Source: Frondihabitans sp. PhB188 (GTDB lineage Bacteria > Actinomycetota > Actinomycetes > Actinomycetales > Microbacteriaceae). Taken from it: a stretch of 64,000 bases of DNA. Positions 535 through 61,753 of the stretch are shown piece by piece. The stretch spans positions 472,355-536,354 of the forward strand of contig NZ_RJUO01000004.1 of the NCBI RefSeq assembly GCF_003752365.1, in the 5' to 3' direction. Under the pieces are notes generated by a model. It ran no database searches. It saw only the letters and a program-made list of their open reading frames with translations, and was not told the origin of the DNA. The translations under genes were made by a program, and so were the position numbers. The stretch's first letter is position 1. Each line of letters opens with the position of its first letter.

Positions 535-1539
535 GTGAGCCACGAACCCCTCGTCATCGCCCACCGCGGAGCCAGCGGACACCGCCCGGAGCACGGCCTC
601 GACGCGTACCGTCTCGCGGTCGAGCTCGGCGCCGACGCGATCGAGCCCGACATCGTCGCGACCCGCGACGGCGTGCTGGTGCTGCGGCACGAGAACGAGA
701 TCTCCGGGACGACGGATGTGGGGCGGCGTTCCGAGTTCCTGCGCCTGAAGACCACGAAGGAGGTCGACGGAGCCGTGCAGACCGGATGGTTCACGGAGGA
801 CTTCACCTGGGCCGAGCTGTCGACGCTGCGCGTGCGCGAGAGGCTGCCGGAACTGCGCCCCGCCAGTGCGGCCCACGACGGGGAGGGCGGGATCCTGCGC
901 CTGAGCGACCTGCTCTCGCTTCTCGACGGCGATGAGGCCCGCGCCCGCGGGGTCGGGCTGGTGGCCGAGGTGAAGCACGCGACGTACTTCGACTCGATCG
1001 GCCTGCCGCTCGGCGAGCTCGTCGCGGCCGAGCTGGCTGCCGCGGGCTGGACGGACGACCCCCGCCTCACGTTCGAGAGCTTCGAGCGGACCGTTCTCGA
1101 CGACCTCCGCACCCGCGGCGCGGGCGGCAGCTACGTCTACCTGCTCGACGCCGAGGGAGCCGCCTACGACCTGGTCTCGCGCGACGGCTCCGCGGCCTCG
1201 ACGTACGCGTCTCAGCTGACCGCCGCCGGTCTCGACGGCCTCGCGTCGGGGCTCGACGGGATCTCAGTGCCGAAGAAGATGCTGCTCGGGCCGACCGGCG
1301 AGGCCGACCCGGCCCTGGTGGGCCTCGCTCACGCTCGAGGGCTAGCGATCTACACGTGGACCCTCCGCCCCGAGAACGCCTTCCTGGCCAAGTCGAACCG
1401 GTCGGGCGGCGCTCGCGCGGAGCACGGCGACTGGCGCACCGAGTTCTCCGAGATCGCCTCGACCGGCGTCGACGGGCTGTTCGCGGACTTCCCGGAGCTC
1501 GCCCGCGAGGCGCTCCGGACGGAGGTCTCCGTCGACTGA
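535..1539 (+). CDS. glycerophosphodiester phosphodiesterase
   Basis: A 334-residue protein that should hydrolyse glycerophosphodiesters to glycerol-3-phosphate and an alcohol. The family motif H-R-G-A-S-G is at residues 10-15. E37 and D39 in E-P-D and H52 in L-R-H-E fit the metal and catalytic residues of the TIM-barrel fold. No signal peptide is visible, so it is probably cytoplasmic. The start is GTG, probably leaderless because of the TAGCGT box just upstream. It may instead act on other phosphodiesters; substrate choice cannot be read from the sequence. It is followed after 37 bases by pcrA in the same direction. Confidence 0.88.
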   Translation: MSHEPLVIAHRGASGHRPEHGLDAYRLAVELGADAIEPDIVATRDGVLVLRHENEISGTTDVGRRSEFLRLKTTKEVDGAVQTGWFTEDFTWAELSTLRVRERLPELRPASAAHDGEGGILRLSDLLSLLDGDEARARGVGLVAEVKHATYFDSIGLPLGELVAAELAAAGWTDDPRLTFESFERTVLDDLRTRGAGGSYVYLLDAEGAAYDLVSRDGSAASTYASQLTAAGLDGLASGLDGISVPKKMLLGPTGEADPALVGLAHARGLAIYTWTLRPENAFLAKSNRSGGARAEHGDWRTEFSEIASTGVDGLFADFPELAREALRTEVSVD

Positions 1540-1576
1540 GGTCGATGTCGGTGGCGGCGCTTAAGCTTGTCGGATC

Positions 1577-6391: not shown

Positions 6392-7570
6392 GTGGATCTT
6401 TTCGAGTACCAGGCCAGAGACCTCTTCGAGGCCTACGGCGTCCCGGTCCTGCCGGGCATCATCGCCGACACCGCCGAGGAGGCGAAGGCGGCCGCCGAGA
6501 AGATCGGCGGAGTGACCGTCGTCAAGGCGCAGGTCAAGGCGGGCGGCCGCGGCAAGGCCGGAGGCGTCAAGGTCGCCAAGACCGCCGACGACGCATACAG
6601 TGCCGCCGAGGCGATCCTGGGCCTGGACATCAAAGGCCACACGGTCAAGCGCGTGATGATCGCCGGCGGCGCGCAGATCAAGCAGGAGTTCTACTTCTCG
6701 GTCCTGCTCGACCGGGCGAACCGCTCGTACCTGTCGCTCTGCAGCGTCGAGGGCGGAATGGAGATCGAAGAGCTGGCCGTCGAGCGTCCCGAGGCGCTGG
6801 CGCGCGTCGAGGTCGACCCGCTGACCGGCATCGACCTCGAGAAGGCCGTCGCGATCGCGAAGGCCGGCGGCTTCCCCGACGACCTCGTCGAGAAGGTCGC
6901 GCCCGTGCTCGTCAAGCTGTACGACGTCTACAAGGGCGAAGACGCGAGCCTGGTCGAGGTGAACCCGCTCGTACTCACCGAGCAGGGCGACATCGTCGCC
7001 CTGGACGGCAAGGTCTCGATCGACGAGAACGCCGACTTCCGGCACCCCGGTCACGCCGAGCTCGAGGACGCCACTGCTGCCGACCCGCTCGAGGCGAAGG
7101 CCAAGGCCGCAGGCCTCAACTACGTGAAGCTCGACGGCGAGGTCGGCATCATCGGCAACGGCGCCGGCCTCGTGATGTCGACGCTCGACGTCGTCGCCTA
7201 CGCGGGTGAGAAGCACGGCGGCGTCAAGCCCGCCAACTTCCTCGACATCGGCGGCGGAGCCTCGGCCGAGGTCATGGCGAACGGCCTCGACGTGATCCTC
7301 GGAGACGAGCAGGTCAAGAGCGTCTTCGTCAACGTCTTCGGCGGCATCACCGCCTGCGACGCGGTCGCGAACGGCATCGTCGCGGCTCTCGGAATGCTCG
7401 GCGACGCCGCCACCAAGCCGCTCGTCGTGCGCCTCGACGGCAACAACGTCGACGAGGGGCGCCGCATCCTCGCCCAGGCGAACCACCCGCTCGTCACCGT
7501 CGTCGCCACCATGGACGAAGCCGCCGACAAGGCGGCCGAGCTGGCCTCCGCCGCCGCGGTCGAGAAGTAA
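6392..7570 (+). CDS. sucC: succinate-CoA ligase (ADP-forming) subunit beta
   Basis: A 392-residue ATP-grasp subunit that binds nucleotide and succinate in the TCA cycle. It begins with the family-typical [26 protein letters not shown] is the ATP-binding glycine-rich segment and the C-terminal domain carries G-G-I-T-A-C-D. The GTG start has a GGAAG ribosome binding site 8 bases upstream. sucD follows after 13 bases, clearly one operon. The upstream ~280 bases carry a palindromic operator candidate and the divergent surface-protein gene. Confidence 0.97.
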
Positions 7571-7583
7571 GGAACAGCAACCA

Positions 7584-8477
7584 ATGTCGATCTTCCTCAC
7601 CAAAGACAGCAAGGTCATCGTCCAGGGCATCACGGGCGGCGAGGGCACGAAGCACACCGCGCTCATGCTGAAGGCCGGAACCCAGGTCGTCGGCGGCGTG
7701 AACGCCCGCAAGGCCGGCACGACCGTCACGCACGGCGATGTCGAGCTCCCCGTCTTCGGCACGGTCACCGAGGCCATCGAGACGACCGGGGCCGACGTCT
7801 CGATCGTCTTCGTTCCCCCGGCCTTCGCCAAGGACGCGGTCGTCGAGGCCATCGAGGCGGGCATCCCGCTCGTCGTCGTCATCACGGAGGGCATTCCGGC
7901 GCAGGATGCCGCCGAGTTCTGGGCGCTCGCCAAGTCGAGGGGCGGCACGACCCGCATCATCGGCCCGAACTGCCCCGGCATCATCACTCCCGGCGAGTCC
8001 CTCGTCGGCATCACTCCCAACAACATCACCGGCAAGGGGCCGATCGGCCTCGTGTCGAAGTCGGGAACCCTGACCTATCAGATGATGTTCGAGCTGCGCG
8101 ACCTCGGCTTCTCGACCGCCATCGGCATCGGCGGCGACCCCGTCATCGGCACGACGCACATCGATGCGCTCGCCGCGTTCGAGGCCGACCCCGAGACCCG
8201 TGCGATCGTCATGATCGGCGAGATCGGCGGCGACGCCGAGGAGCGCGCCGCCGACTACATCAAGGCCAACGTCACGAAGCCGGTCGTCGGCTACGTCGCC
8301 GGCTTCACGGCTCCGGAGGGCAAGACCATGGGCCACGCGGGTGCGATCGTGTCCGGCTCGGCGGGCACCGCCCAGGCCAAGAAGGAGGCCCTCGAGGCCG
8401 CGGGTGTCAAGGTCGGCAAGACGCCGAGCGAGACTGCTGCGCTGCTGCGCGAGGTGTTCAGGGAGCTCGCTAGCTGA
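7584..8477 (+). CDS. sucD: succinate-CoA ligase subunit alpha
   Basis: A 297-residue partner of sucC. The N-terminal Rossmann-like CoA-binding domain has Q-G-I-T-G-G-E-G near residue 15. The phosphohistidine segment M-G-H-A-G-A-I-V places the active His at residue 251. With SucC it interconverts succinyl-CoA and succinate with ATP formation. The last codons (E-L-A-S-stop) are repeated twice more in tandem immediately downstream as part of a 33-bp repeat. Two stem-loops, one a likely terminator, follow before the next gene. Confidence 0.97.
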
Positions 8478-8550: not shown

Positions 8551-8582
8551 CGCGCGGCCGCGGGCCTTTAGCCGCTGCGCCA

Positions 8583-8634: not shown

Positions 8635-8643
8635 CGACTTCCT

Positions 8644-8678: not shown

Positions 8679-8711
8679 GGCGTCGGCGGCCGCCGGTACA
8701 GTCATCGCCGT

Positions 8712-10142
8712 ATGAACCGCCCTCTCACCGCCGTCTTCGCCGCGCTCGAGTCCTTGCTCGTCGTGGGCATCGGCGTGGGCGTCCCGGTGGTCTCGCTGAC
8801 CTTCCTGTGGGCGTTCCAGTACGGCCTTCAGATCGACTGGAGCGTGTTCTGGCGGGCGGGCGCCGACGTCTGGCTGGTCGGCCACGGCGCTGACCTCACG
8901 CTGACCCTCTCGAAGTCGGCCGCCAGCGCCACGGGCATCTCCGGTGCGGGGGCGCCGATCCTGATCTCGATCGCCGCTCTCGGATTCGCGCTCACGACCT
9001 TCCTGCTCGGCGCTCGCGCGGGCCGCCGGCTCGCCGAGACGAACCACCGCGTCGTTGGCAGCGTCGCCGCGATCGCGTCGTTCGCCGTGTACGCCGCCAT
9101 CGTCACCGTGACAGCGCGCCAGCCCTCGGCAGACGTGTCGCTGGTGCAGGGCACCGTCTTTCCGACGCTCTTCTTCGGCGTCCCCCTGCTCATCGCGGTC
9201 GAGGTGAACCGTCGTCGCCGGGATCAGCCGCCAGGCGTGTTCATCGGTCTGGGTCTCCGAGCATTCGACGAGATCCCGAAGGTCGGCCGTGTGGTCGCCG
9301 TCGCCGCCATCCGCTCGGGCCTGGCCGTCTCGGTCGTCGTGTTCGCCGTCGCCGGTCTGCTGGTCGCCCTGCTGCTGGCCACCCACTACGCGGCGATCAT
9401 CGCGCTCTTCGAGGGCGCGCACGGCGGCGTCCTCGGCGGGCTCGCGCTGACGATCGGCCAGATCGCGCTGCTGCCGAATGTCGTGGCCTGGGCGGCGGCA
9501 TGGCTCGTCGGTCCGGGGTTCGCGATCGGCGCCGGGTCGTCGGTGTCGCCACTCGCGACGACGCTGGGGCCGATGCCGGCTGTTCCCTTTCTCGGTGCGC
9601 TTCCCGCCTCGACGTCGAGCTTCGCGTTCGTCGGCATCCTCGTGCCGGTGGTGGCGTCGTTCGTCGTGGTGACGCTGTTCCGGCCGGCGCTCCAGCGGGC
9701 GCTGGGCGAAGTCGACTCGCTCCTGGTCCGCGTCATCGCGGGCGCCGCGACGGGAGTCGCGGCCGGTCTGATCATCGGTGTCACCGCTGCCCTCTCTGCG
9801 GGTTCCGCCGGACCGGGTCGCCTCGCCGACGTCGGCCCCGACGCCTTCGCAGTCGGCGGCTTCGCGGCGCTCGAGATCGGTGTGCCGGCGATGCTCGCCC
9901 TCATGGTGCGGCAGCCCGACTGGGCGCTGAGCGACCTGACGGAGGCCGTGGCCGACAGGCTGCCACGGCGGGAGGCCGAGGGCGGCGGGGCGGTTGGGGG
10001 AGCTGCAGTTCCTGCGCCCGAAGCACCGGTGAAGCCGCAGATGGCCGAGAGGGACGACGCCGTAGCCGACCACGACGACCTCACCTCGGGCCTGCCCTCT
10101 CTCGCAGACGCCCTCGACGGGGAGACCGACCGAAAGCGGTAG
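8712..10142 (+). CDS. DUF6350 family polytopic membrane protein
   Basis: A 476-residue protein with about ten hydrophobic segments from residue 7 to ~400 and a Pro/Ala/Asp-rich hydrophilic tail. Family membership is inferred from this topology and its position between sucD and purN, where actinobacteria carry this uncharacterised family. No catalytic motif is recognised and its function is unknown. TACAGT ends 10 bases before ATG 8712, suggesting a very short leader. Its final codons D-R-K-R-stop lie in a sequence repeated in tandem four times, running into the purN promoter. Confidence 0.72.
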   Translation: MNRPLTAVFAALESLLVVGIGVGVPVVSLTFLWAFQYGLQIDWSVFWRAGADVWLVGHGADLTLTLSKSAASATGISGAGAPILISIAALGFALTTFLLGARAGRRLAETNHRVVGSVAAIASFAVYAAIVTVTARQPSADVSLVQGTVFPTLFFGVPLLIAVEVNRRRRDQPPGVFIGLGLRAFDEIPKVGRVVAVAAIRSGLAVSVVVFAVAGLLVALLLATHYAAIIALFEGAHGGVLGGLALTIGQIALLPNVVAWAAAWLVGPGFAIGAGSSVSPLATTLGPMPAVPFLGALPASTSSFAFVGILVPVVASFVVVTLFRPALQRALGEVDSLLVRVIAGAATGVAAGLIIGVTAALSAGSAGPGRLADVGPDAFAVGGFAALEIGVPAMLALMVRQPDWALSDLTEAVADRLPRREAEGGGAVGGAAVPAPEAPVKPQMAERDDAVADHDDLTSGLPSLADALDGETDRKR

Positions 10143-17583: not shown

Positions 17584-18825
17584 ATGCGCACCGGCACCAA
17601 CCTTCCGGCGATCGGCGGCTACAACCAGGCGGTCGTCCTCGACGCCATCCGCAGGGCCTCCGACGGCCTCAGCCGCGTGGAGCTCGCGGAGCGCACCGGC
17701 CTCAGCGCGCAGACTATCGGCAACGTGTCGCGCCGCCTCCTCGACGAGGGCCTGGTACGCGAGACCGGCAAGGTCGTCAACGGACCGGGCAAGCCCCGCA
17801 CGATCCTCCAGCTCGAGGGGCGCGGCAGCTACGCGGTCGGAGTCCACATCGACCCCGCCGTCATCACCTACGTCGTGCTCGACCTGCGCGGCTCGGTCGT
17901 CTCGCACTCGCGCACGCGCACCCCGTCGGCGAAGCGGCCGGCCGAGGTCATCGAGCTGATGGCCCGGTCGATCAGCCACCTCATCGACGACTCCGGGGTC
18001 GACCGGTCGCTGGTCCTCGGCGTCGGGATCGCCTCGCCGGGGCCGATCGACGCCGGAGCCGGGACCGTGCTCGACCCGCCCATGCTGCCGATGTGGAAGA
18101 ACGTCCCCCTGCGCGCGGCGCTCAGCGAGGCGACCGGGCTGCCGGTGCTCCTCGAGAAAGACGTCACGGCGGCCGCGGTCGCCGAGCTCTGGTTCTCGCG
18201 CGAGAACGAGCGGCAGAACTTCGCCTTCGTCTACTACGGCACCGGGTTCGGAACGGGGCTCGTCCTGAACCGCGAGGCCGTCCGCGGTTCCACGGCGAAC
18301 GCGGGCGACGCGGGCCACATCACGGTCGACCCGGCGGGCGCGGTCTGCGTCTGCGGACGCGCCGGCTGCGTCGGCGACCTGATCACGCCGCGCTCGCTCG
18401 TCCAGCAGGCCATCGCCGCGCAGGTCCTGCCTCCCCTCGAGCCCGACGCCGACGATCCGACCGACATGGCGGCGATCAGCCGCGCGTTCCAGCGTCTGGC
18501 CGAGAGCGCAGGAACTGGCCAGCCCGCCGCCCAGCTCATCCTCCGCGAGGCGGGCCTCCACCTCGCCCGCGCCGTCGTCGTGCTCGTCAACCTCCTCGAC
18601 CTCGACGAGATCGTCTTCGGAGGGCCCTTCTGGGACGAGATCGGCGACGCGCTCCTGGCCGTCCTGCCGACCGCCGTCGAGACGGACCCGGCCCTCATCC
18701 CCACGCACTCGCTGCTCTTCGACCGGTCGTCGATCGGGGAGGACGTCGCCGCCGTCGGGGCCGCCTGCCTGGTGCTCGACTACGCCTTCTCGCCGCGTCC
18801 GTCGGCGATGCTGATCTCGGTCTGA
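17584..18825 (+). CDS. ROK family transcriptional regulator
   Basis: A 413-residue regulator. The winged helix-turn-helix is at residues ~18-70 (S-R-V-E-L-A-E-R-T-G-L-S-A-Q-T-I-G-N), followed by a ROK sugar-kinase-like domain. The zinc motif reads C-V-C-G-R-A-G-C-V-G. ATG 17584 is preferred because GGGAGG lies 6 bases upstream; the in-frame ATG at 17578 abuts that site. TACAGT at about 17542 is a possible -10. The next gene is an alpha-mannosidase, so control of mannoside use is inferred. A palindrome in the intervening region is a candidate operator. Confidence 0.88.
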   Translation: MRTGTNLPAIGGYNQAVVLDAIRRASDGLSRVELAERTGLSAQTIGNVSRRLLDEGLVRETGKVVNGPGKPRTILQLEGRGSYAVGVHIDPAVITYVVLDLRGSVVSHSRTRTPSAKRPAEVIELMARSISHLIDDSGVDRSLVLGVGIASPGPIDAGAGTVLDPPMLPMWKNVPLRAALSEATGLPVLLEKDVTAAAVAELWFSRENERQNFAFVYYGTGFGTGLVLNREAVRGSTANAGDAGHITVDPAGAVCVCGRAGCVGDLITPRSLVQQAIAAQVLPPLEPDADDPTDMAAISRAFQRLAESAGTGQPAAQLILREAGLHLARAVVVLVNLLDLDEIVFGGPFWDEIGDALLAVLPTAVETDPALIPTHSLLFDRSSIGEDVAAVGAACLVLDYAFSPRPSAMLISV

Positions 18826-22180: not shown

Positions 22181-22969
22181 CTACCGGGCGACGAGCTCCG
22201 CCGGCCGGCACTCCGCGAGGCCGGGCACGTCGACGACGCCGTCGAGGACGTAGTCGTGCGGCTCGGCCTCGAGCTCCGCGCGACCGAGGGCTCCGGTGAG
22301 CACTCCGACGGCGATCACCCCGGCGTTGCGAGCGGCGCGGAGGTCGACGAGGGTGTCGCCGGCGGCGAGGACGGATGAGACGGCCTCGACGCCGGCGAGC
22401 TCCATGGCGTGGTGGATCATGTACGGCGCCGGGCGACCGGCCGCGACGTCGGAGGTGGTCACGACGGCGTCGAGCACGACGGCCCGTTCCTGCGGGCCAC
22501 TGCCCTGCGGGCCACTGCCCTGCGGGCCACTCTCCTGGACCGTCGGGCCCTGCGCCCCGGGCTGAGGGGCGGTTCGGGCGAGCCCCCACCCCAGCGAGTC
22601 GAGCAGCGCCCAGGCCACGTCGCGGTCGAAGCCGGTGGTCAGCGCGACCTTGATGCCGCGGGCGCGGAGGGCTCCCAGGGCCTCGGCCACGCCGTCGAAC
22701 GCGACCGGCGGCTCGTCGCGGTACGACTCGGCGAGGGCGTCCTTGAAGCGGTCGAAGCGCTCGGCGACCAGGGCGCCTGAAGGCTCGACCCCGCCGAGGC
22801 GGAGGAGGGCTGTGATGGCGGTGACCTTGTCGGTTCCCATCCACGTCTGGAGGTCGGCGTCATCGAGCGTCGCCCCCGCTTCGGTGACGGTTGTGGCGAG
22901 GGCGCGGTACACGGCGCCGCCGTCGTCGACGGTCGTTCCTGCCATGTCAAAGACAGCCAATTCGATCAT
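22181..22969 (-). CDS. phosphonatase-like HAD hydrolase
   Basis: A 262-residue HAD hydrolase. Motif I reads D-M-A-G-T-T (residues 8-13), the D-x-A-G-T form of phosphonoacetaldehyde hydrolase (PhnX) and its sister clade. Later motifs include T-T-G-F-D-R and A-G-D-T-L-V-D. It is divergent from an ABC importer of the phosphonate/iron/polyamine type, which supports a role with phosphonate-like compounds. Residues ~145-162 are a G-P-Q-G-S-type micro-repeat encoded by 15-bp DNA repeats. The start follows a TACGCT box by 6 bases (leaderless). Whether the Schiff-base lysine of true PhnX is present is unresolved. Confidence 0.8.
   Translation of the reverse strand: MIELAVFDMAGTTVDDGGAVYRALATTVTEAGATLDDADLQTWMGTDKVTAITALLRLGGVEPSGALVAERFDRFKDALAESYRDEPPVAFDGVAEALGALRARGIKVALTTGFDRDVAWALLDSLGWGLARTAPQPGAQGPTVQESGPQGSGPQGSGPQERAVVLDAVVTTSDVAAGRPAPYMIHHAMELAGVEAVSSVLAAGDTLVDLRAARNAGVIAVGVLTGALGRAELEAEPHDYVLDGVVDVPGLAECRPAELVAR
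22484..22537 (-). repeat. 15-bp tandem micro-repeat inside phosphonatase-like gene
   Basis: On the minus strand the unit GGCCCGCAGGGCAGT recurs with 15-bp spacing; one end is CAGGAGAGT and the other GCAGGAACG. It belongs to the same family as the purH and galK repeats. Confidence 0.8.
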
Positions 22970-26176: not shown

Positions 26177-27270
26177 CCTCCACCAGCCCCGCACCCGTCC
26201 TGTCCCGCCTCGGCGACGGCGCCACCGTCGAGCTGATCGGCGTGGTCAAGGAGTACCCGGGCGCAGGAACTCGGGCCCTCGACGAGCTGTCCCTCTCCAT
26301 CGCGCCCGGCGAGTTCATCGCCCTGCTCGGTCCCTCCGGCTGCGGCAAGACGACCGCCCTCCGAGCCCTGGCCGGCCTCGAGCAGATCAACGCCGGCTCG
26401 ATTCGCATCGACGGCGTCGACGTGGCGTCGACGCCCGTGAACAAGCGCGATATCGGAATGGTGTTCCAGGCGTACTCGCTGTTCCCGCATATGACCGTGC
26501 TGCAGAACGTCGAGTTCGGGCTGCAGATGCGCCGCGTCTCGGCCGCTGACCGCGCCGTCCGGGCTCGCGAAGCGCTCGAGATGGTCGGACTCGACCACCT
26601 GGCCGAGCGCTACGCGCACCAGATGTCGGGCGGCCAGCAGCAGCGCGTCGCGCTGGCCCGCGCCCTCGTCACGCGCCCCCGCGTGCTCCTCCTCGACGAG
26701 CCGCTGTCGGCGCTCGACGCGAAGGTGCGCGTGTCGCTCCGCGAGGAGATCCGCCGTATCCAGACCGAGCTCGGCATCACGACCGTCTTCGTCACGCACG
26801 ACCAGGAGGAGGCGCTCGCCGTCGCCGACCGCGTCGCCGTCATGCGTGCCGGCGAGATCGAGCAGATCGGAACCCCCGAGGCCCTGTACCTGACGCCGCG
26901 GACGCCGTTCGTCGCCGACTTCGTGGGCGTCAGCAACCGCATGCAGGGAACGCTCCGGAGCGGCACCATCACGGTGCGCGGTGCCAGCCTGCCGTCGATC
27001 GACCCCACGCTGCCCGACGGGGAGGTGCTGGCCTACGTCCGCCCGGAGGACATGGTCTTCGTGCCCCTCGACCAGGCCGCGCCGGCCGACATCACCGGGA
27101 CCGTCGCATCGACGAGCTTCCTCGGCTCGCTCCGCCGCACGACGGTGCGCCTGGACGACGACACGATCGTGTCGGTGCAGCACGGTGTCGAGCAGCAGTT
27201 CCTGTTCGGGGACGCGGTGGCGCTGCGGCTCACGGGGCGCCCCGTGGCGTCGAGCCCGGTGGCGGCGTAG
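26173..27270 (+). CDS. ABC importer ATP-binding protein
   Basis: A 365-residue ATPase. Walker A is G-P-S-G-C-G-K-T near residue 55, the signature M-S-G-G-Q-Q-Q-R and Walker B L-L-L-D-E-P-L-S-A-L-D. The C-terminal ~110 residues form a TOBE-like regulatory domain, as in polyamine, iron and phosphonate importers. It is the last of four overlapping genes and energises the two permeases. One CGCAGGAACT word lies at 26262. Confidence 0.9.
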   Translation: MTSTSPAPVLSRLGDGATVELIGVVKEYPGAGTRALDELSLSIAPGEFIALLGPSGCGKTTALRALAGLEQINAGSIRIDGVDVASTPVNKRDIGMVFQAYSLFPHMTVLQNVEFGLQMRRVSAADRAVRAREALEMVGLDHLAERYAHQMSGGQQQRVALARALVTRPRVLLLDEPLSALDAKVRVSLREEIRRIQTELGITTVFVTHDQEEALAVADRVAVMRAGEIEQIGTPEALYLTPRTPFVADFVGVSNRMQGTLRSGTITVRGASLPSIDPTLPDGEVLAYVRPEDMVFVPLDQAAPADITGTVASTSFLGSLRRTTVRLDDDTIVSVQHGVEQQFLFGDAVALRLTGRPVASSPVAA

Positions 27271-29692: not shown

Positions 29693-30542
29693 CGTGCTCG
29701 GTGCGTGCGTCGCGGCGTGCCCGCGCGGCGCCGGGCCGGCCGCGGGTGCGCGCCGCCGTGCCCGCGCCCAGCTGCGCGCTCCGGGTCGCGTCGGACCGTG
29801 CACCGCGGCGCCGGACCGTGCGCCGCGCCGCCGCGCCTCGCCGTGCGCGAGGTGGCCGCCGTCGTCGGGGTGCTGGCCCCGCGGCGACGCGGAGGGCCAC
29901 CTCGGGATGGGTGGGGTGGTCTGTCGCGCGGGCGAGGTACCCGTAGGGCCGCCGAGGTGGCCGCCGTCGTCGGGTCGGTCGCCCCGTGGCGACCCGGAGG
30001 GCCACCTCGGGATGGGTGGGGTGCGGTGGTGCGAGATGGCCGTCGTCGTCGGGGCGCCGGCCCCGCGGCGACCCGGAGGGCCATCTCGGGATAGGTGGGT
30101 GGTCTGTGGCGCGGGCGAGGTGCCCGTAGGGCCGCCGAGGTGGCCGCCGTCGTCGGGTCGGTCGCCCCGACCCGACGCGCGAGGCCATCTCGCGGCGGGT
30201 GAGGTCGGGCCGGGTACCGGGTGAGTGGAATCTGCGGCTCAGGGGGCGATTCGGCGCAGGAACTGCGCACTCGACGGCGAGCACCCGCCGCGTCGCGCGC
30301 GTGCCGGTCCGCGAGGTGGCCCGCGTCGTCGGGCTGGGCGTCGCGAGGCGACGGCGGCGGCCATCTCGGCGGGGACGGCGCGGCGGCGGCGCGGCGGCGG
30401 TGGGGCGCGCCCGGCGGCGCGGCGGCGCGGCGGCGGCGGGGCGGGGAAGACGGCGGGCGGCACGACGGCCCGAGGCCGGGCGCGACGGGGCGCGGGCCCG
30501 CGGGAGCGCAGCGGCCGGGCCGGGCGGAGTCAGGCCCCGAAG
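29693..30542. repeat. GC-rich intergenic region with five hairpin repeats
   Basis: No gene is supported in these 850 bases. Five units have the same outer arms, GAG(G/A)TGGCC and GGCCA(C/T)CTC, enclosing about 37 bases that contain GTCGTCGGG and GCGAC-type inner pairings. Arm pairs are at 29849/29895, 29954/30000, 30033/30079, 30137/30183 and 30313/30359. The first four are joined by conserved G-rich linkers (GGGATGGGTGGGG, GCGCGGGCGAGGT). Downstream, 30370-30540 is CGG-rich low-complexity DNA. A CGCAGGAACT word sits at 30255. Base changes in the arms are compensatory. Confidence 0.8.
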
Positions 30543-38557: not shown

Positions 38558-40119
38558 CGGTCTTCCGCGGCGCGACGGTCCATGACGGCACCGGCGCGCC
38601 GAGCAGACCGGCCGACGTGGTCGTCGAGGCCGGCCTCATCACGGCAGTCGAAGCAGGTGCACCGGCACCCGTCGGCGCCGAGGTCGTCGACGCGTCCGGC
38701 CGGGCGATGCTCCCGGGCTTCATCGACGCGCACTCGCACGACGACGCCGCGCTGTTCCGCCCCGGCGGCCTCGACCCCAAGACCGGCCAGGGCGTCACGA
38801 CGACTGTGCTCGGCAACTGCGGGCTCGGCGTCGCACCGTCGTCGCCCGGCCTCGCCGAGAGCGCGACGCCTGTGCTCGGGCCGTTCCCCGACCGCCACTG
38901 GCCCACGTTCGGCGACTATCTCGCCGAGATCGCCGCCGAGGCCCGAGCCGTCAACACCGTGGCGCTGGTGCCTCATGCTCCGCTGCGAGCCGCCGCCCTC
39001 GGATTCGAACGCCGCCCGGCCACAGCGGCTGAAGTCGATGCGATCGCAGGAACTGCGGCCTCAGCCCTCGACGCAGGCGCAGCCGGCATCTCGCTCGGCC
39101 TCATGTACGCACCGGGTGACGAGGCCACCCGCGACGAGCTGCTCGCGCTGGCGACCGCCGCCGCACGGCACGACCGCCTGCTCGTGGCGCACATCCGCAA
39201 CGAGGCCGACCACCTGCGCGCTTCCATCGACGAGATGGCCGACCTCGCCCGGGCCACCGGTGCTCGCCTCCACATCAGCCACCTCAAGGTCACCGGGCCC
39301 GCGAACGCCGGCGGCATGCCGGCGATCATCGACCACCTCGATGCGCTCCGCGACGAGGGGATCGACGTCACGGCCGACGTCTACCCGTACGACGCCGGGT
39401 CGACGACCGTCGCCTCGCTCTTCCCGCCGGACGCCCAGGGCGCACTGGTCGCGCTCCTGTCCGACCCGACGACGCGGCGGCCCCTCCTCGCGCGGCTCGA
39501 CCACCCGTGGCCCGCCACCGCCCTCGAGAACCAGTGGGCCGCCGTCGGGCCCGGCCGCATCCTCCTGGCGGGGTTCCCCGCGACGATGGCCGAGTACGAG
39601 GGGCTGTCGGTCGCCGCCATCGCCGCGTCGCGGGCGCAAGACCCCCTCGACGCACTCGCGGACCTCGTCGTCGGGGCCGCCGGGCAGCTCACCGTCGTCG
39701 TCTTCCACACCGACCCCGACGGCGTGCGGCAGGCCCTCGCGTGGCCGCACACGCTCGTCGGCAGCGACGGGCTCCCGCGCGAGGCCGGATTCGTGCACCC
39801 CCGGCTCTACGGCACCTTCCCGCGGGCGCTGACCCTGGGGGTGCTGCCGTTCGACGCGGCCCTCGCGCGGATGACCTCGGCCACGGCCGACCGGTTCGGG
39901 CTGGCCCGACGAGGCCGCATCGAGGTCGGGGCCGCGGCCGACCTGCAGCTCGTCGACCTCGGCGCCTACGCCGACCGGGCGACGTACGACGACCCGCGGC
40001 GCAGCCCGGCGGGCCTCGCCGGCGTGTGGGTCGGCGGGGTGCGCGTGGGTGCGGCGTCGGCCGGCCAGTTCCTGCGCCCCGCCCCTGCTGCCCCTGCTGG
40101 CCCCAACAAAAGCGGGTGA
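38539..40119 (+). CDS. N-acyl-D-amino-acid deacylase family amidohydrolase
   Basis: A 526-residue metal-dependent amidohydrolase. F-I-D-A-H-S-H-D-D-A is the metal-binding strand near residue 65, and V-L-G-N-C-G matches the conserved Cys of D-aminoacylases. Later segments include H-I-S-H-L-K and G-S-D-G-L-P-R. GTG 38539, overlapping nagB by 19 bases, is the only plausible start. The family removes acyl groups from N-acyl-D-amino acids. RidA and a D-amino-acid deaminase-like gene 3 kb downstream suggest D-amino-acid salvage, perhaps from peptidoglycan. A dihydroorotase- or NagA-like activity is less likely. Confidence 0.82.
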   Translation: MAAVRVAVFRGATVHDGTGAPSRPADVVVEAGLITAVEAGAPAPVGAEVVDASGRAMLPGFIDAHSHDDAALFRPGGLDPKTGQGVTTTVLGNCGLGVAPSSPGLAESATPVLGPFPDRHWPTFGDYLAEIAAEARAVNTVALVPHAPLRAAALGFERRPATAAEVDAIAGTAASALDAGAAGISLGLMYAPGDEATRDELLALATAAARHDRLLVAHIRNEADHLRASIDEMADLARATGARLHISHLKVTGPANAGGMPAIIDHLDALRDEGIDVTADVYPYDAGSTTVASLFPPDAQGALVALLSDPTTRRPLLARLDHPWPATALENQWAAVGPGRILLAGFPATMAEYEGLSVAAIAASRAQDPLDALADLVVGAAGQLTVVVFHTDPDGVRQALAWPHTLVGSDGLPREAGFVHPRLYGTFPRALTLGVLPFDAALARMTSATADRFGLARRGRIEVGAAADLQLVDLGAYADRATYDDPRRSPAGLAGVWVGGVRVGAASAGQFLRPAPAAPAGPNKSG

Positions 40120-40180: not shown

Positions 40181-41479
40181 TTAGAGGGACGACTGAGGGG
40201 ACCTCTCCAGGTGCGCGTAGTCGGGGAGGGCGATCTTGTCGGCGGGCGGGGAGAAGAGCTTGGCGCCGAGACGGGAGGCGACGCGGCTCGATGCGACGCG
40301 GAGGCCGGTGTGGAACGCCGCGAGACCTGCCCGGGTGCGCGGGTTGGCGACGCGAGGGACCCCCGGCGGCAGCTTCTGGGCCTGGTCGACGAAGGGCCGC
40401 ATGATCCGGTCGTAGCCGGCGAACGCGTCGCGGTGATCGACGTGGGCGGCGAGCTCGCCCGCGAGCACGTAGGCGCCGACGAGCGAGAGGCTCGTGCCCA
40501 TGCCGCTGAGGGGGGACGCGCACCAGGCGGCGTCTCCGGTGAGGGCGACCCGGCCTCGCGACCAGCTCGGCGCATGCACCTGGCCGACCGACTCGAAGTA
40601 GACGTCGTCGGCCCTGTCGAGCTCGTCGAGCACCCGCGGCGCCTCCCAGCCGGAGCTCCCGAACTGGTCGCGAAGGCGGGCCCGCTGCTCGTCGGGGCTC
40701 CGGCGGCTGTCGCGCTGCGTCGCCTCGTCGTCGTAGAGGATCGACGTCAGCACGGCGCGGGTGGTCCCGTGGCGGTCGGGCCGCAGGGTGACTGCGAGCC
40801 CGCCGGGCTCGCTGTACCAGCGCCACCAGTCGACGTCCGACTCGGTGCGCGGGATCGTCAGGTACGTCATCTCCATGCCGAGGGGCCGGACCACCGCCTC
40901 GTCGCCGAAGACCAGCCGACGGGTCGACGAGCCGATGCCGTCGGCCGCGATCACGAGGTCGAACCGACGCGGCTCGCCGTGCTCGAACGTGACATCGACA
41001 CCGTCGCCGGTGTCGTCGAGTCCAGTGATGCGGTCGCCGAAGACGTACTCGGTGGTGCCGGCGGAGGGTGCGACGGCCGACGTGCTGGACGTGCCGGACG
41101 TGCCGCGTGTCGCGCCGGACCCCGCGTCGCTGGTCGCCTCCACCAGGATCCGCGACAGGTCGCCGCGCAGGATCTCGACTTCCGCAGTCGCGCCGCTCGT
41201 CTCGGACGCCGTCGCCGGGAACTCGGCGACGACCGCGCCGCCAGCGCCGAGGAAGCGCGTGCCGAGCTCGCCCGTCGTAGCGGCCTTGACGGCCTTCTCG
41301 AGCCCGGCGCGTCGGAGCACCTCGCGGGCGGCGCCGCGCACGTCGATGTTCTGGCCGCCCTCGCGGAACGCCGGCGCCCGCTCGACGACAGTGGTGCGCC
41401 AGCCGTAGCGGCTCAGCCAGAAGGCGAGCGATGGGCCGGCGATGCTCGCGCCGGAGATCAGGACGTGCGGTCGCGTCAT
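40181..41479 (-). CDS. FAD-dependent monooxygenase (PHBH/UbiH type)
   Basis: A 432-residue flavoprotein hydroxylase. The N-terminal dinucleotide fold has I-S-G-A-S-I-A-G-P-S and ends in V-V-E-R. The second FAD motif is G-D-A-A-W-C-A-S-P-L-S-G-M-G-T near residue 310. Substrates of this family are usually aromatic compounds or antibiotics; none can be assigned. Residues ~125-145 are a Gly/Ser/Thr-rich insertion. It is convergent with the deacylase and has a GAGG site before ATG 41479. It interrupts a run of D-amino-acid genes and borders the poly-C tract. Confidence 0.85.
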   Translation of the reverse strand: MTRPHVLISGASIAGPSLAFWLSRYGWRTTVVERAPAFREGGQNIDVRGAAREVLRRAGLEKAVKAATTGELGTRFLGAGGAVVAEFPATASETSGATAEVEILRGDLSRILVEATSDAGSGATRGTSGTSSTSAVAPSAGTTEYVFGDRITGLDDTGDGVDVTFEHGEPRRFDLVIAADGIGSSTRRLVFGDEAVVRPLGMEMTYLTIPRTESDVDWWRWYSEPGGLAVTLRPDRHGTTRAVLTSILYDDEATQRDSRRSPDEQRARLRDQFGSSGWEAPRVLDELDRADDVYFESVGQVHAPSWSRGRVALTGDAAWCASPLSGMGTSLSLVGAYVLAGELAAHVDHRDAFAGYDRIMRPFVDQAQKLPPGVPRVANPRTRAGLAAFHTGLRVASSRVASRLGAKLFSPPADKIALPDYAHLERSPQSSL

Positions 41480-45811: not shown

Positions 45812-46966
45812 TCATGGCACGATCGGCGACCCCGCGGCCCAGACGCGCTCCACCGTCCAGCCGGGCGTCCACGCGACGAGGTCGGCGGCGAAGCCCGGCT
45901 CGACGAGGCCGAGCGTGCGCTCGAGGCCGAGCGCGGCGGCCGGCGTGAGGGTGAGGGCGGCCACCGCGTGAGCCGGCGGGAGCCCGACCTGGTCGATCGC
46001 GAGGCGCAGCGCCGCGTCCTGCGTGAGGGTCGAGCCCGCGATCGTTTCGGTTCCCGACAGCGTGGCGGTTCCGTCGGCGACCGTGACGTCGAGCGAGCCG
46101 AGACGGTACTCGCCGTCGTCCGCACCGGCGGCGGCCATCGCGTCGGTGATTAGCGCGATGCGGCCGGGGGCGGCGGCGAACAGCATCGCGGCGACCCGCG
46201 GATGCACGTGCACCCCGTCGAGGATGAGCTCGAGCGTCACGCGCCCGTCGTCGACCGCGGCCACGACGGGGCCCGGGGCGCGGTGGTGGATGCCGGGCAT
46301 GGCGTTGAAGGCGTGCGTCAGCAGCCGCGCGCCGGCGTCGAAGCCCGCACGCGTCGTGGCGTAGTCGGCGACGGTGTGCCCCAGTGCCACGGCGACGCCC
46401 GCCCCCGACAGCCGCGCGATGGCATCGAGCGCTCCCGGCAGCTCGGGGGCGACGGTGACCTGACGGAGCGCGGCGCCGCCGGCCTCCAGCAGCGCGTCGA
46501 GAACGGCACCGTCGGGGGCCGAGAGGAAAGCCGGGTTGTGCGCCCCGCAGTTGCCGGGCGACAGGAGGGGGCCCTCGAGGTGCGCGCCGAGCACGAGGGG
46601 GTCGGACGCGCAGAGGTCGCTGATCGCGGCGAGGGAGGCGCGGAGTTCCTGCACCGGATTCGCGACGAGGCTGATCACCGAGCGCGTGGTGCCGTGCGCG
46701 CGGTGCACGGCCAGCGCAGCCGCGAACGCCGCGGGGTCGGTGGCGCCGTCGTCGAACGAGAAGCCGCCGCCGCCGTGGCCGTGCAGATCGATGAGGCCGG
46801 GCGTGAGCGTCGCGCCGCCGAGCTCGACTTCCTCGTCGACGACGGCGCCCACGAAGTCGCCGGGGCCTCCGACGGCGGCGATCCGCCCCGCTTCGATGAG
46901 AACGCAGGAACTCGCCCGCTCACCCCGCGCATCGAGCACCGCCGCATCGCGCAGCAACGACCTCAT
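45812..46966 (-). CDS. nagA: N-acetylglucosamine-6-phosphate deacetylase
   Basis: A 384-residue amidohydrolase removing acetyl from N-acetylglucosamine-6-phosphate, feeding NagB. Motifs are D-L-H-G-H-G-G-G-G-F near residue 60, H-L-E-G-P (metal-binding Glu), L-G-H-T, H-A-F-N-A-M-P and T-D-A-M-A-A-A-G with the catalytic Asp. The ATG overlaps the yrdB-like stop (ATGA). It is 8 kb from the rest of the amino-sugar locus, so its control may differ. Confidence 0.94.
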   Translation of the reverse strand: MRSLLRDAAVLDARGERASSCVLIEAGRIAAVGGPGDFVGAVVDEEVELGGATLTPGLIDLHGHGGGGFSFDDGATDPAAFAAALAVHRAHGTTRSVISLVANPVQELRASLAAISDLCASDPLVLGAHLEGPLLSPGNCGAHNPAFLSAPDGAVLDALLEAGGAALRQVTVAPELPGALDAIARLSGAGVAVALGHTVADYATTRAGFDAGARLLTHAFNAMPGIHHRAPGPVVAAVDDGRVTLELILDGVHVHPRVAAMLFAAAPGRIALITDAMAAAGADDGEYRLGSLDVTVADGTATLSGTETIAGSTLTQDAALRLAIDQVGLPPAHAVAALTLTPAAALGLERTLGLVEPGFAADLVAWTPGWTVERVWAAGSPIVP

Positions 46967-49703: not shown

Positions 49704-50870
49704 TCACGGGTAGCCGACGAACCAGAGCAGCACGACCGCGACGGCCTGGAGCACGACGGCCGACGCGAGCACGACGACGCGTCGGCGGCGCGTCTTCGAG
49801 AAGAGCTCGCTGCCGAGGAGGGGCGCGACGGGCATCATCAGGCGGACGAGGCTCTGCTGCGGGAGGAACACGGCGACGAGGTACAGCCAGTACGAGGCCG
49901 TGAACGCTACGAGGTCGCGGCCGAGTTCCTGCGTCGATCTGCGGGTCAGCCAGAACACGCCGGCAGCGATCGCGGCGAGCACCACGGCCACGCCCGCCCA
50001 CCCCAGATATGTCGACGCCATCGTGAACCACGGCGTGAGCGGCGTGAAGTGCCGCCGGCCGACGAAGCCGACCCACCACGACAGCTCGGTGTCGAGGTAC
50101 GCGCTCGGGTGGCCGGTCGCAGCCGTGGCTATCGGCGGCCAGGCCAGGCCGGCAGCGCACGTCACGGCTCCCGCGACGACGATCCGCACGACGTCGCGCC
50201 CGGGAAGCGGGTCGGTCTCCCGCGACCGCCACCGCATCAGCAGGTGGACGCCGAGCGCCAGGGCCAGCGCGAGGATCCCCGGCCGGGTGAAGGCGGCGAG
50301 CACGGCGAACGGGATCAGCGCGAGGTAGCGCCGCGTCAGCAGGCACCACAGCGCCGCGAACAGGAAGAACAGGAAGGCGCTCTCCGCGTACGCCGCCTGC
50401 AGCAGGAACCCCATGGGCCCCACGCAGAACAGCGCGACTGCGAACAGGGCCCGGGGCGCAGGAACTCGCAGCACCAGCACGCGGTAGAGCATCAGGGCGG
50501 CCCCGGCGCCGAACAGCATCGCCACCACGACGCCCGCCGGATAGAAGCCGAGCCCCGTCGCGCCCGACACGAACCGGACGATCCCCGGGAAGACCGGGAG
50601 GAAGGCCCACGGGTTCGGCACCACGTGGCCGCTCGCGTCGACCGGGAGCGTCGTCGGATACCCGTGCTCGGCGATCGTCTTGTAGAACGAGGCGTCCCAG
50701 GAGCCGGAGAACGTGAAGAACGACGGATTCGACCGGTGGCTCGCGAACGTCCAGCCCTGAGCGGTCGCAAGCGCGAACATCGCGCCGAGGAGAGCCGACG
50801 ACAGCACGCGCGACGCGGCGTAGACCGCGAGCACCGCGAGCCATGGTCTCTCGGTCAGGACTCGGCGCAC
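49704..50870 (-). CDS. GT-C type membrane glycosyltransferase-like protein
   Basis: A ~388-residue protein with about nine to ten membrane segments. A large first loop contains W-D-A-S-F-Y, followed by V-P-N-P-W-A-F-L-P-V-F-P, which resembles PIG-V-type mannosyltransferases using lipid-linked mannose. The GTG at 50870 is preferred because TAGGTT ends 7 bases upstream; a TTG three codons earlier overlaps that box. Donor and acceptor are unknown. Two CGCAGGAACT words lie inside. Confidence 0.68.
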   Translation of the reverse strand: MRRVLTERPWLAVLAVYAASRVLSSALLGAMFALATAQGWTFASHRSNPSFFTFSGSWDASFYKTIAEHGYPTTLPVDASGHVVPNPWAFLPVFPGIVRFVSGATGLGFYPAGVVVAMLFGAGAALMLYRVLVLRVPAPRALFAVALFCVGPMGFLLQAAYAESAFLFFLFAALWCLLTRRYLALIPFAVLAAFTRPGILALALALGVHLLMRWRSRETDPLPGRDVVRIVVAGAVTCAAGLAWPPIATAATGHPSAYLDTELSWWVGFVGRRHFTPLTPWFTMASTYLGWAGVAVVLAAIAAGVFWLTRRSTQELGRDLVAFTASYWLYLVAVFLPQQSLVRLMMPVAPLLGSELFSKTRRRRVVVLASAVVLQAVAVVLLWFVGYP

Positions 50871-56781: not shown

Positions 56782-57581
56782 GCACCGATGGTGTCCGATG
56801 GCCTCGCCCCCGCGCGGCACGATCCGCCGATCTGTGGAGAGCCCGCCGTGAGGAGCGGCCCTGTTGAGAACGTCCCACCGGCACTTCGCCGCGCGGTCAT
56901 GGACACGACACCCGCCGGAACGGCAGAGCCCCGCGGTTTGTTGGGCGGGGTCGTGCCGATTCGGCGGGCGTGGCCGCTGGCCGGCGGTGGCCCCGCCGGA
57001 CCGGCCGGTACCCGCCGGAACGGCTTAGCCCCGTGGATTCGGGCGCGGACACCCGCCGGAGCGGCTAAGCCCCGCGGCTCCGGGCGCGGCCCCGCCGGAA
57101 CGGCAGAGCCCCGCCGTCTTAAGGGCGGGATCGGGCCGATTCGACGGGGCTGGCCGCTGGCCGCGGTGGCCCCGCCGGAACGGCCGGTGCCCGCCGGAAC
57201 GGCCTAGCCCCGTGGGTTCGGGCGCGAATACACGCCGGAACGGCAGAGCCCCGCGGTTTGTTGGGCGGGATCGTGCCGATTCGGCGGGCGTGGCCGCTGG
57301 CTGGCGGTGGCCCCGCCGGACCGGCCGGTGCCCGCCGGAACGGCTTAGCCCCGTGGGTTCGGGCGCGGACACCCGCCGGAACGGCAGAGCCCCGCCGTCT
57401 GTTAGGCGGGATCGTGCCGATTCGGCGGGGCGGGCAACGCAGGCGCAGCCCCGCCAGGCGCGGCCCCGCCAGGCGCGGCCCCGCCAGGCGCGGCCCCGCC
57501 AGGCGCGGCCCCGCCAGGCGCAGTGAGCGCACCCGCGACCCGGGGACGCAGGAACTCGGGGCGGCCGGCTTCGAGAGCGAG
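56782..57581. repeat. 800-bp GC-rich intergenic region with ~140-bp imperfect repeats
   Basis: No gene is supported. Units beginning CCGCCGGAACGGC(A/T)(G/T)AGCCCCG and containing CGTGCCGATTCGGCGGG recur: near-complete copies at about 56909-57048, 57090-57226 and 57227-57368, partial ones at 57049-57090 and 57369-57434. The element also appears inverted at the 3' end of the neighbouring gene (about 55794-55860). A separate 15-bp array follows, then a CGCAGGAACT word at 57547. Reading frames through the repeats are Arg/Gly/Pro-rich artefacts. Confidence 0.75.
57448..57522. repeat. 15-bp tandem array, five copies
   Basis: GCCCCGCCAGGCGCG is repeated at 57448, 57463, 57478, 57493 and 57508; the last copy ends in A instead of G. 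It lies just downstream of galK on the galK-distal side of the repeat region. Confidence 0.9.
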
Positions 57582-58792
57582 CTAGACCCGTCGCGCCCCG
57601 TCGGCGGCGTGCACCGCGAAGACCGTCGGCTCGCGATACCCCGCGGCGGCGAACGCCGCCAGCACGGCCGCCGTCACGGCGTCACGCGCGGTGGTCGGCA
57701 CGAGCGCGATCGCCGAGCCGCCGAAGCCGCCGCCGGTCATGCGTGCGCCGACGGCGCCGGTGGCCTGCGCCGTCGCGACGGCCAGGTCGAGCTCGGGCAC
57801 CGAGATCTCGAAATCGTCGCGCATCGACGCGTGGGAGGCGTCGAGCAGCGCGCCGATGGCGCCCGGGCCCTTCTCGCGGAGGGTGCGCACGGTGTCGAGC
57901 ACGCGCCGGTTCTCGGTGAGGATGTGCCGCACGCGGCGGAACGTCTCGTCGTCGAGCACCTCGGCGGCGCGAGGCAGGTCGTCGACGTCGAGGTCGCGCA
58001 GCGACGACACGCCCATCTCGCGGGCTCCGCGCTCGCACGAGACGCGGCGGTCGACGTACCCGCCGGTGGCGTGCGCGTGCTCGACGCGGGTGTCGATCAC
58101 GAGCAGCTCGAGGGAGGCGGCGGAGAAGCCGAGGTCGATCACCTCGGCGTCGAGGCTGCGGCAGTCGAGGAAGACGGCGGAGTCGGCCCGGCCGAGCAGC
58201 GACGCCGACTGGTCCATGATGCCGGTGGGGGCTCCGACGGCGTCGTTCTCGGCGAGCTGCCCGACGGAGGCCAGGAACGGCCGGGTCACGTCGAGGTGCC
58301 AGAGGTCGGTGAGGGCGACGGCGACGGCGCACTCGATGGCCGCGGACGACGACAGGCCCGCGCCCACGGGAACGTCGGAGTCGACCCAGATGTCGAGGCC
58401 GGCGGCGGTGGTGAGTTCCTGCGAATCACTGCCCTGCGCGTCAGTACCCTGCGCCCCGAGCTTCTGCTGCAGAGCCCACGCGATGCCGAAGACGTAGGCC
58501 GACCAGCCGGACATCTGCGTCGTGTCGAGGTCGTCGAGCGAGATCTCGTGGACGCCGGCCTCGAAGGAGGAGGCCACGCGGAGGAGGCGGTCGTCGCGGA
58601 CTCCGACGGTGATGGTCGTGTCGCGGTCGATCGCGAGCGGAAGCACGAAGCCGTCGTTGTAGTCGGTGTGCTCGCCGATCAGGTTGACCCGGCCGGGGGC
58701 CGCCCAGCGCCCGACGACGGCGGTGTCGAAGGCGCCCTCGAAGGAGGTGGCGCCCTCGAAAGATGCGCTGCTCTCGGAAGAAGATGGTGACG

Positions 58793-60789: not shown

Positions 60790-60811
60790 CATCCCGACCT
60801 AGGAGTCCCGC

Positions 60812-61753
60812 GTGACCGACGTCGCCCCGCCCACCGGCGAGCAGTACCACCTCCGACTCGACGCCCCCGGCGGCGTCGTTACGGCCATCGTCACCGAGGT
60901 CGCCGCGGGTCTCCGCGCCCTCGAGGTCGGCGGAGTGGCCGTCGCCGAGACCTTCTCCGAGCACGAGGCGCCCCCGTCGGCTTCCGGCATCACCCTCGTC
61001 CCGTGGCCCAACCGCGTCGACGGCGGCACCTGGACCCTCGACGGCAAGCCCCAGCAGCTCGACATCACCGAGGTCGCCAAGGGCAACGCCAGCCACGGCC
61101 TCCTCCGCTTCTCGCCCTACCGCGCCGTCTCGGTCGAAGAGCACGCGATCACGCAGTCGGCGTCGGTCTTCCCGCAGCACGGCTACCCGTTCCGCCTCGA
61201 CACCACCGTGCGGCACGAGCTCGTCGACGGAGGCATGGTCGTCACGCACACCGTGACCGGCCGGGGCGCAGGAACTGCGCCGATCGCCGTCGGGGCCCAC
61301 CCGTTCTTCCGTGTCGGCGGCCACGACCCCGCCTCCCTCCGGGTCACCCTCGACGCCGCCACCCGCTTCGAGACGAACGTCCGCAGCATCCCCGTCGGCA
61401 CGGCGCCCGTCGCGGGCACTCCGTTCGACCTGACCGGCTCCCCGCTGCTCGGCGACCTCGACATCGACGCCGGCTACACCGACATCGCCACCGACGGCGA
61501 GGGGCACCGCCACATCACGCTCGCGGCCCCCGACGGCTCGTCGACGACAATGTGGATGGACGCCGCGTACCCGTACATGCAGGTGTTCACGCCCCGCAAC
61601 TTCCCGCGCGACGGCGTGAAGGGCCTGGCCTTCGCGGCCGAGCCGATGAGTGCTCCGGCCAACGCGCTGGTCTCGGGCGAGGGCCTGGTGTGGCTCGCCC
61701 CCGGCGAGACCTGGACCGGCCGGTGGGGCGTCGCCTACTCCCCGGCCCCCTAG
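60812..61753 (+). CDS. galM: aldose 1-epimerase family protein
   Basis: A 313-residue mutarotase-fold protein. W-P-N-R-V near residue 67, N-A-S-H-G-L-L with the catalytic-type His near 95, and V-G-A-H-P-F-F near 165 fit the family. It interconverts anomers of galactose or glucose, matching the neighbouring galTK genes. GTG start with TAGGAG upstream. A perfect GGCGCAG-GAA-CTGCGCC word lies in frame as A-G-T-A. Confidence 0.9.
   Translation: MTDVAPPTGEQYHLRLDAPGGVVTAIVTEVAAGLRALEVGGVAVAETFSEHEAPPSASGITLVPWPNRVDGGTWTLDGKPQQLDITEVAKGNASHGLLRFSPYRAVSVEEHAITQSASVFPQHGYPFRLDTTVRHELVDGGMVVTHTVTGRGAGTAPIAVGAHPFFRVGGHDPASLRVTLDAATRFETNVRSIPVGTAPVAGTPFDLTGSPLLGDLDIDAGYTDIATDGEGHRHITLAAPDGSSTTMWMDAAYPYMQVFTPRNFPRDGVKGLAFAAEPMSAPANALVSGEGLVWLAPGETWTGRWGVAYSPAP

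Follow-up and report, generated by a model that had tools for sequence, protein, structure and literature searches.

A dispersed 10-mer over-represented in Frondihabitans sp. PhB188 resembles a dialect of a DNA-uptake-sequence-like word

Introduction

Why should one 10-base word recur, on both strands and both within and between genes, along an actinomycete chromosome? The question is raised by a 64,000-nucleotide stretch of Frondihabitans sp. PhB188 (Microbacteriaceae; contig NZ_RJUO01000004.1, positions 472,355 to 536,354; hereafter the window), in which a previous sequence-only reading had described CGCAGGAACT as a dispersed, over-represented 10-mer with at least 13 copies. We counted this word in the window, in the PhB188 genome and across the family, aligned its sites with those of congeners, and compared the words of relatives with their pilus genes. 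Copy numbers and comparisons among genomes suggest, with a probability of about 0.6, that CGCAGGAACT is the PhB188 species' dialect of a DNA-uptake-sequence-like word.

Copy number of the word in window, genome and family

All 13 copies of CGCAGGAACT listed earlier were found in place and on the strands given, whilst 100 dinucleotide shuffles of the window yielded a mean of 0.11 copies and a maximum of 2. Allowing up to one mismatch, the window contained 27 sites against 4.5 expected, 14 of which were single-mismatch variants. A copy of TGCAGGAACT reported at 46644 on the minus strand was present, as were three near-matches at 11486, 22485 and 27274, although the coordinates first given for these were off by up to 2 bases.

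The enrichment extends well beyond the window, so the refuting outcome named in the previous reading, an excess limited to the window, did not occur. The PhB188 genome carried 701 copies (373 forward and 328 reverse) in 3,793,925 bases on 10 contigs, compared to 23 (11 and 12) for the same letters read backwards, which served as the control for genome-wide counts. An order-3 Markov model predicted 1.54 copies in 420,865 sampled bases of this genome where 87 were observed, and in a sample of 460,865 bases the word occurred 92 times, against an average of 1.03 for 5,000 scrambles of its letters. The most frequent rearrangements in the latter sample were stretches that capture this motif at an offset (GCAGGAACTC, 86 copies; CAGGAACTCG, 64 copies), and another rearrangement, TCGACGACGA, occurred 51 times. 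Among the 398 Microbacteriaceae genomes searched the excess is confined to PhB188: the other 397 reached a maximum of 41 copies, and six congeners carried 3 to 21. The FolD protein encoded in the window was 92 % and 90 % identical to Frondihabitans proteins, followed by Frigoribacterium and Curtobacterium.

Anatomy and coding context

The word has a sharp core. In the 420,865-base sample all 30 single-base variants totalled 90 against 87 exact copies, and 55 of these 90 differed at positions 1 and 10, so variants of the inner eight bases are few beside exact copies. Flanking preference was strong for a few bases only (G at -1 in 65/87 copies, C at +10 in 60/87), beyond which there was a weak C-richness downstream. 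Between 10 and 35 bases 3' of the word this amounted to C in about 42/87 and G in about 24/87 copies per position.

A hairpin extension of the flanks, described earlier as frequent, proved atypical: GCG followed just 6/92 copies, with CG following 41/92 and CC 20/92, and a hairpin model of CGCAGGAACT was accordingly rejected. The earlier observation of several coding frames on both strands was borne out. A simple gene caller based on codon usage placed 40 of 87 copies in sense orientation, 28 antisense, 18 in intergenic positions and one partially within a gene. Genic copies lay on both gene strands and in three frames, two of them dominant, and were read as AQEL (TQEL, SQEL), AGT, EFLR (QFLR, KFLR), VPA, RRN and SSC. 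Inter-copy gaps had a coefficient of variation of 1.01, Poisson-like and without regular spacing. In a small sample of close pairs (<400 bp), 5/5 were inverted in minus-plus order. Copies were sparser in the lowest-GC quartile (0.64 versus 0.82-1.23 per 5 kb), a pattern that newly acquired DNA without words would be expected to produce.

Origin of the sites

The copies in the window, together with one variant and one genus-level word, are as follows.

734..743, minus strand: CGCAGGAACT, exact match
10007..10016, minus strand: CGCAGGAACT, exact match
18507..18516, plus strand: CGCAGGAACT, exact match; ungapped substitutions relative to congeners
26262..26271, plus strand: CGCAGGAACT, exact match; a 6-base length difference adjoins in congeners
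30255..30264, plus strand: CGCAGGAACT, intergenic in our gene calls; hairpin extended in part
39045..39054, plus strand: CGCAGGAACT, exact match; G002 has CGCAGGGACA at the aligned position
40067..40076, minus strand: CGCAGGAACT, exact match
46903..46912, plus strand: CGCAGGAACT, intergenic in our gene calls
49924..49933, minus strand: CGCAGGAACT, ungapped substitutions relative to Leaf304
50457..50466, plus strand: CGCAGGAACT, differs from Leaf304 and F. sucicola by substitution without gaps
57547..57556, plus strand: CGCAGGAACT, intergenic in our gene calls
58414..58423, minus strand: CGCAGGAACT, exact match
61267..61276, plus strand: CGCAGGAACT, extended to the hairpin GGCGCAGGAACTGCGCC; differs from Leaf304 by substitution without gaps
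22485..22494, minus strand: CGCAGGAACG, a one-off variant of CGCAGGAACT with G as base 10, a change seen more often than any other single one (21 times in 420,865 bases)
41166..41175, plus strand: CGCAGGATCT, which holds the genus-level GCAGGATC (residual in PhB188)

The six congeners sampled include G001 to G005 (G000 denotes the PhB188 genome, G004 is Leaf304 and G005 is F. sucicola NBRC 108728). Where orthologues align cleanly, CGCAGGAACT replaces rather than inserts bases; at 49924, 50457 and 61267 it stands in place of other bases with no gap in the Leaf304 alignment. Across the window there were 33 alignable site-genome pairs, 19 clean and 14 gapped (7.4 % of controls were gapped). Clean pairs averaged 4.21 mismatches per word, a figure that is partly inherent, the word being itself a change in the PhB188 lineage, against 2.50 per 10 bases in the flanks and 1.80 in random ten-mers of the window. 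Gap runs near word sites ranged from 1 to 13 bases, most commonly 1 and 6, and none had a length of 10. At two sites the congeners' readings are their own word spellings. At the position aligned to 18507, G002 carried CGCAGGATCC with an identical left flank, G003 and G005 carried GGCAGGATCG, and G004 carried CGAAGGATCC, which agrees with its own frequent word AAGGATCCG. At 26262, beside the 6-base length difference, G005 had CGCAGGATCC and G002 had AGGATCC.

Sister words in relatives

Reading the window alone, the earlier account had recognized a DNA-level signal, but sister words in relatives lay beyond its view. We scanned 80-141 kb per genome in the six congeners and 40-kb samples in ten other genera. 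The word GCAGGATC was over-represented in 6/6 congeners, at 1.9x to 5.6x, with additional words in G001 (GCAGGAGC) and G003 (GCAGGATGCC). PhB188 retains GCAGGATC at 2.2x, and GCAGGAACT occurred there 114 times against 5.0. Further enriched words were GAGACTCCAC in G003 (13 versus 0.19) and, outside the genus, GGGTTGAGGA in G013 (10 versus 0.08).

In the ten other genera CGGATGCCG was clear in G007, G009, G011, G013 and G030, weaker or variant in G008, G016, G026 and G033, and absent from G012. Whole-genome counts of CGGATGCCG against its reversed control reached 2,375 versus 96 in G034 and a maximum of 3,084 versus 162 in G169, whilst in 23 genomes from other families of the order it stayed within 2.7-fold of that control. 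In G079 and G148 (genus g72) CGGATGCCG was rarer than the reversed word (14 versus 57 and 10 versus 55), as if avoided. Nine orthologous Frigoribacterium loci held 116 copies of AGGAGGCGCG and none of its reverse. Ten genomes that encode a type IV pilus (T4P) and are low in CGGATGCCG were also sampled; in G063, G137 and G075 other, AGGA-type words were clear, in G083 and G102 they were weak, and G021 and G078 seemed dominated by other repeats. A strong common word was not found in 40 Curtobacterium-type loci. Single 20-kb loci without an obvious word still reached log-likelihoods of 24 (Curtobacterium) and 17 (Blastococcus), and weak cases were therefore not relied on. Relatives display dialects around a shared core, and any agreement with lineage was judged by genus label only.

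Competence and pilus genes

An apparently complete T4P operon was identified at C4:400951-413942, about 58 kb before the window (C4:472355-536354). Its order was pilB, pilT, pilC, pilA, two minor pilin-like genes, a PilX-like gene, pilD, pilM, pilN and pilO, followed by genes resembling rpsL, rpsG, fusA and tuf. Names for the ribosomal neighbours, for PilN and for the minor pilins were assigned by eye from position and sequence, the latter meaning the N-terminus in the case of PilN and the minor pilins. A comEA gene with helix-hairpin-helix and SLBB domains adjoins the ComEC match. ComEA, ComEC and a type IV-type pilus are all encoded in the word-bearing genome.

Among congeners PilB (where available), PilC and PilM were 80-97 % identical, with the exception of a 73 % piece of G005 PilM, whilst identities were 67-93 % for PilT and PilD, about 46-58 % for PilA and 38-56 % for PilN and PilO. 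The minor pilin-like proteins (genes at positions 6509-10355 of stretch L191) diverged far faster than PilC and PilM, at 30-53 % identity, and gave no Pfam match. These fast-diverging pilin-like proteins of the T4P operon are candidate receptors. Frame breaks were present in PilC, PilM and PilO of F. sucicola (G005), and also in FusA; a break in this essential gene makes the pilus-gene breaks look like sequencing errors. In G002 the ComEC match was split over two frames (G002:C1:2981383-2982173). The use of this split and of the broken PilM of G005 as natural knock-outs was dropped, as GCAGGATC still stood at 3.4x in G002 and 4.3x in G005.

Association of words with pilus loci

Shared descent is not accounted for in the following associations, and in tests of CGGATGCCG a genome with another dialect counted as low. 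PilM was found in 77/150 genomes, one of them below the curated cut-off. The ratio of CGGATGCCG to its reversed control had a median of 7.3 where PilM was present and 3.2 where it was absent (p=7.5e-5, 150 genomes). Among genomes of 2.4 Mb or more p was 0.018, and PilM alone was rejected as a correlate. A PilT search of 20 PilM-negative genomes revealed a T4P in 2/12 that were strongly enriched and 0/8 that were weakly enriched. Ten strongly enriched genomes, two of them incomplete assemblies, remained without PilM or a close PilT match, and all ten encoded a second Tad-type TadA. Twelve of these Tad-2 loci (eight from the ten T4P-negative genomes) were examined by eye; most contained tadA, tadB, tadC, a Flp-like pilin and TadE/F-like genes, and 4/12 adjoined a gene resembling prfB.

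A TadA-2 profile matched 107/150 genomes at E<=1e-80, and gave no match in the three Frondihabitans tested (G000, G001 and G004). Ratios of at least 10 were reached by 32/63 genomes with both T4P and Tad-2, 1/16 with T4P only, 9/44 with Tad-2 only and 0/27 with neither. The Tad-2 idea came from 23 hand-picked genomes; with those removed and genome size set to at least 2.4 Mb, the corresponding counts were 26/54, 1/15, 0/14 and 0/13, or 26/68 with Tad-2 (0/14 where T4P was lacking) versus 1/28 without. At genus level (69 genera, at least 2.4 Mb) such ratios occurred in 24/49 genera with Tad-2 versus 0/20 without (p=4.8e-5). Words of the AGGA type, defined as at least 2.5x and at least 20 copies, were present in 7/8 sampled genomes with T4P and no Tad-2 (4 genera), 0/12 with Tad-2 and 0/3 with neither.

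A probable uptake-sequence-like dialect

We favour an uptake-sequence-like system because the many copies, the spelling variants that share a core and the presence of competence pili together resemble the situation in Neisseriaceae. There, the available text of Frye et al. 2013 (PMC3630211) describes eight dialects of the DNA uptake sequence (DUS), with a conserved CTG core and congruent with phylogeny. As far as that text goes, the likeness comprises brief words whose copies number from hundreds to thousands, dialects on a shared core, and a type IV pilus with ComEA/ComEC. In Neisseriaceae the reader is ComP, a minor pilin of the type IV pilus; here the phylum is Actinomycetota, the core is GGA and any ComP-like reader is putative.

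The uptake signal sequences (USS) of Pasteurellaceae, as portrayed in the extracts available, are likewise dispersed words in competent species, and in this respect resemble CGCAGGAACT. USS are placed at tolerant positions and have flanking AT tracts; the flanks of CGCAGGAACT differ in their G at -1 and C at +10. Within the same phylum, natural transformation of Micrococcus luteus depends on a Flp/Tad pilus and its Tad cluster, according to the text available to us (PMC4322843), and the Tad-2 loci of relatives look the same in order, with gene names assigned by eye. The Frondihabitans tested differ in having no Tad-2 TadA, and the term 'uptake sequence' does not occur in the main text of the M. 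luteus paper.

If CGCAGGAACT is such a dialect, a putative receptor borne on the pilus would preferentially bind word-bearing DNA, and fragments from kin would enter via ComEA/ComEC and recombine more often. Alleles that complete a word by mutation would then spread more often into neighbours, the word would build up wherever coding tolerates it, and a change of receptor would let a new dialect accumulate whilst the old one decayed. In Frondihabitans the type IV pilus would be the likeliest reader, given that Tad-2 TadA was not detected in G000, G001 or G004. A broader scheme, which we advance tentatively and hold less probable than the dialect itself, is that the whole of Microbacteriaceae labels its own DNA for transformation. 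GGATGCC words would be read via the Tad-2 pilus and AGGA words (GCAGGATC, AGGAGGCGC, CGCAGGAACT) via T4P after loss of Tad-2, PhB188 having recently switched whilst keeping residues of an older dialect.

Several results weigh against these proposals. ComEC was present in 58/60 genomes, word-poor ones included, and as a near-universal gene was rejected as a discriminator. Across genera, T4P alone correlated weakly with strong CGGATGCCG enrichment (p=0.065), and T4P status was corrected unevenly, PilT having been checked in 20 PilM-negative genomes; the ten strongly enriched genomes without a detected T4P also count here. G110 reached a CGGATGCCG ratio of 16 with no TadA-2 match, and 8/27 genomes with neither pilus had 5-9x CGGATGCCG, for which relics must be assumed. 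A clear word was absent from G060, G061 and G070 when these genomes with both pili were sampled. The AGGA-type comparison covered 8/16 genomes with T4P and no Tad-2, 4 of them chosen for low CGGATGCCG. These genomes may represent one or two clades, and G026, which has Tad-2, showed GCAGGAAC at 7 versus 2.6. In the alignments the gapped pairs leave few clean sites, the mismatch excess is partly intrinsic as noted, and the excess of shared sites over scrambles was small (59/177 versus 0.262). The low word density at lowest GC may reflect composition.

To our knowledge, two Gram-negative families have uptake sequences, and no report of them in Actinomycetota was found in the open-licence literature among the matches listed. 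If the uptake reading is correct, these words would represent a second radiation that arose independently in a different phylum and comprises many dialects. The origin of dialects, the link between pilus and receptor, and a role as barriers to gene flow would be open to comparative tests. It has long been asked whether molecular drive or selection for kin recognition makes uptake sequences accumulate. The uptake reading, if correct, would further suggest that natural transformation is common among Microbacteriaceae, and adding the word would provide a simple handle for the genetics of harmless members.

Alternative explanations

A private, sharp, dispersed word without strand bias would also fit a sequence maintained by a DNA methyltransferase or by mismatch-repair bias, in the manner of HIP1 (GCGATCGC) of cyanobacteria, a short word of very high copy number. 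An orphan methylase would then read the word or part of it, its retention would be favoured by repair or selection, and dialects would track methylase specificity; HIP1 is tied to orphan methylases in the available portion of PMC4390886. HIP1 is palindromic and methylase-linked in that account, whereas CGCAGGAACT and its sister words, of 8-11 bp, are not their own reverse complements and form dialects, and a shared core with a shifting 3' end is no obvious methylase pattern. Judged by the form of the words, we consider this explanation unlikely. Slightly less probable is another transfer route that favours word-bearing fragments, through packaging by a gene transfer agent or transducing phage or through translocation by a conjugation ATPase, which would create an equal drive in the absence of natural transformation. 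Any transfer step with a sequence preference would enrich words alike, with dialects following the reader protein; among the loci surveyed (ComEC, T4P and Tad-2), the best correlates were pilus loci.

The previous reading had listed a recombination or segregation motif, a nucleoid-protein site, an uptake-type word and a mobile micro-repeat as possible DNA-level signals, and the uptake-type word now fits best. A signal read on the chromosome itself, such as Chi, FtsK-orienting polar sequences (KOPS) or a nucleoid-protein site, would explain why the word is dispersed genome-wide, and Chi sequences do differ among species. Strand polarity, taken per stretch and not mapped to origin or terminus, was absent for CGCAGGAACT (52/40, p=0.63), for the Frigoribacterium word (82/75 in nine orthologous loci, p=0.89) and for pooled CGGATGCCG (50/66). 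On this basis Chi and KOPS were rejected, and with Poisson-like spacing and a spelling that varies among congeners the chromosomal signal as a whole receives a still lower probability. A mobile or amplified micro-repeat copying into new sites would account for high copy number limited to one species and for the elevated share of gapped alignments (14/33 versus 7.4 %). It is improbable given the ungapped substitutions at 18507, 49924, 50457 and 61267, gap runs that never measured 10 bases, open reading frames intact in three frames and a strong flank preference that spans few bases. Insertion of a repeat resembling repetitive extragenic palindromes (REP) or miniature inverted-repeat transposable elements (MITE) was likewise disfavoured by the clean alignments and by conservation that reaches little beyond the word. 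Finally, most copies are genic and two frames dominate, as a protein- or codon-level bias generating the word in coding sequence would predict. Six peptide readings on both strands, 18/92 intergenic copies, a reversed word at 23 and just 3-21 copies in congeners make such a bias very hard to credit.

Other repeats in the window

Several further repeats were observed. Long G/C homopolymers (G13, C17, C9 and C56) at 41562-41674 may represent an assembly artefact or a phase-variable tract. Tandem arrays were present at 56911-57521 and 29848-30099, comprising 141- and 179-bp units with CCCGCCGGAACGGC, a 15-bp array and 79-105-bp units. Tandem repeats of 15 bp with CAGGGCAGTG or CCTGCGGGCCACTGC were found at 11438-11491, at 22489-22531 and near 58414. 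The word CACTGCCCTG occurred 6 times in the window against 0.07 expected, and GCGTGAATTCAC, which holds the palindrome GTGAATTCAC, occurred 8 times against 0.02 expected in the own-genome sample including the window.

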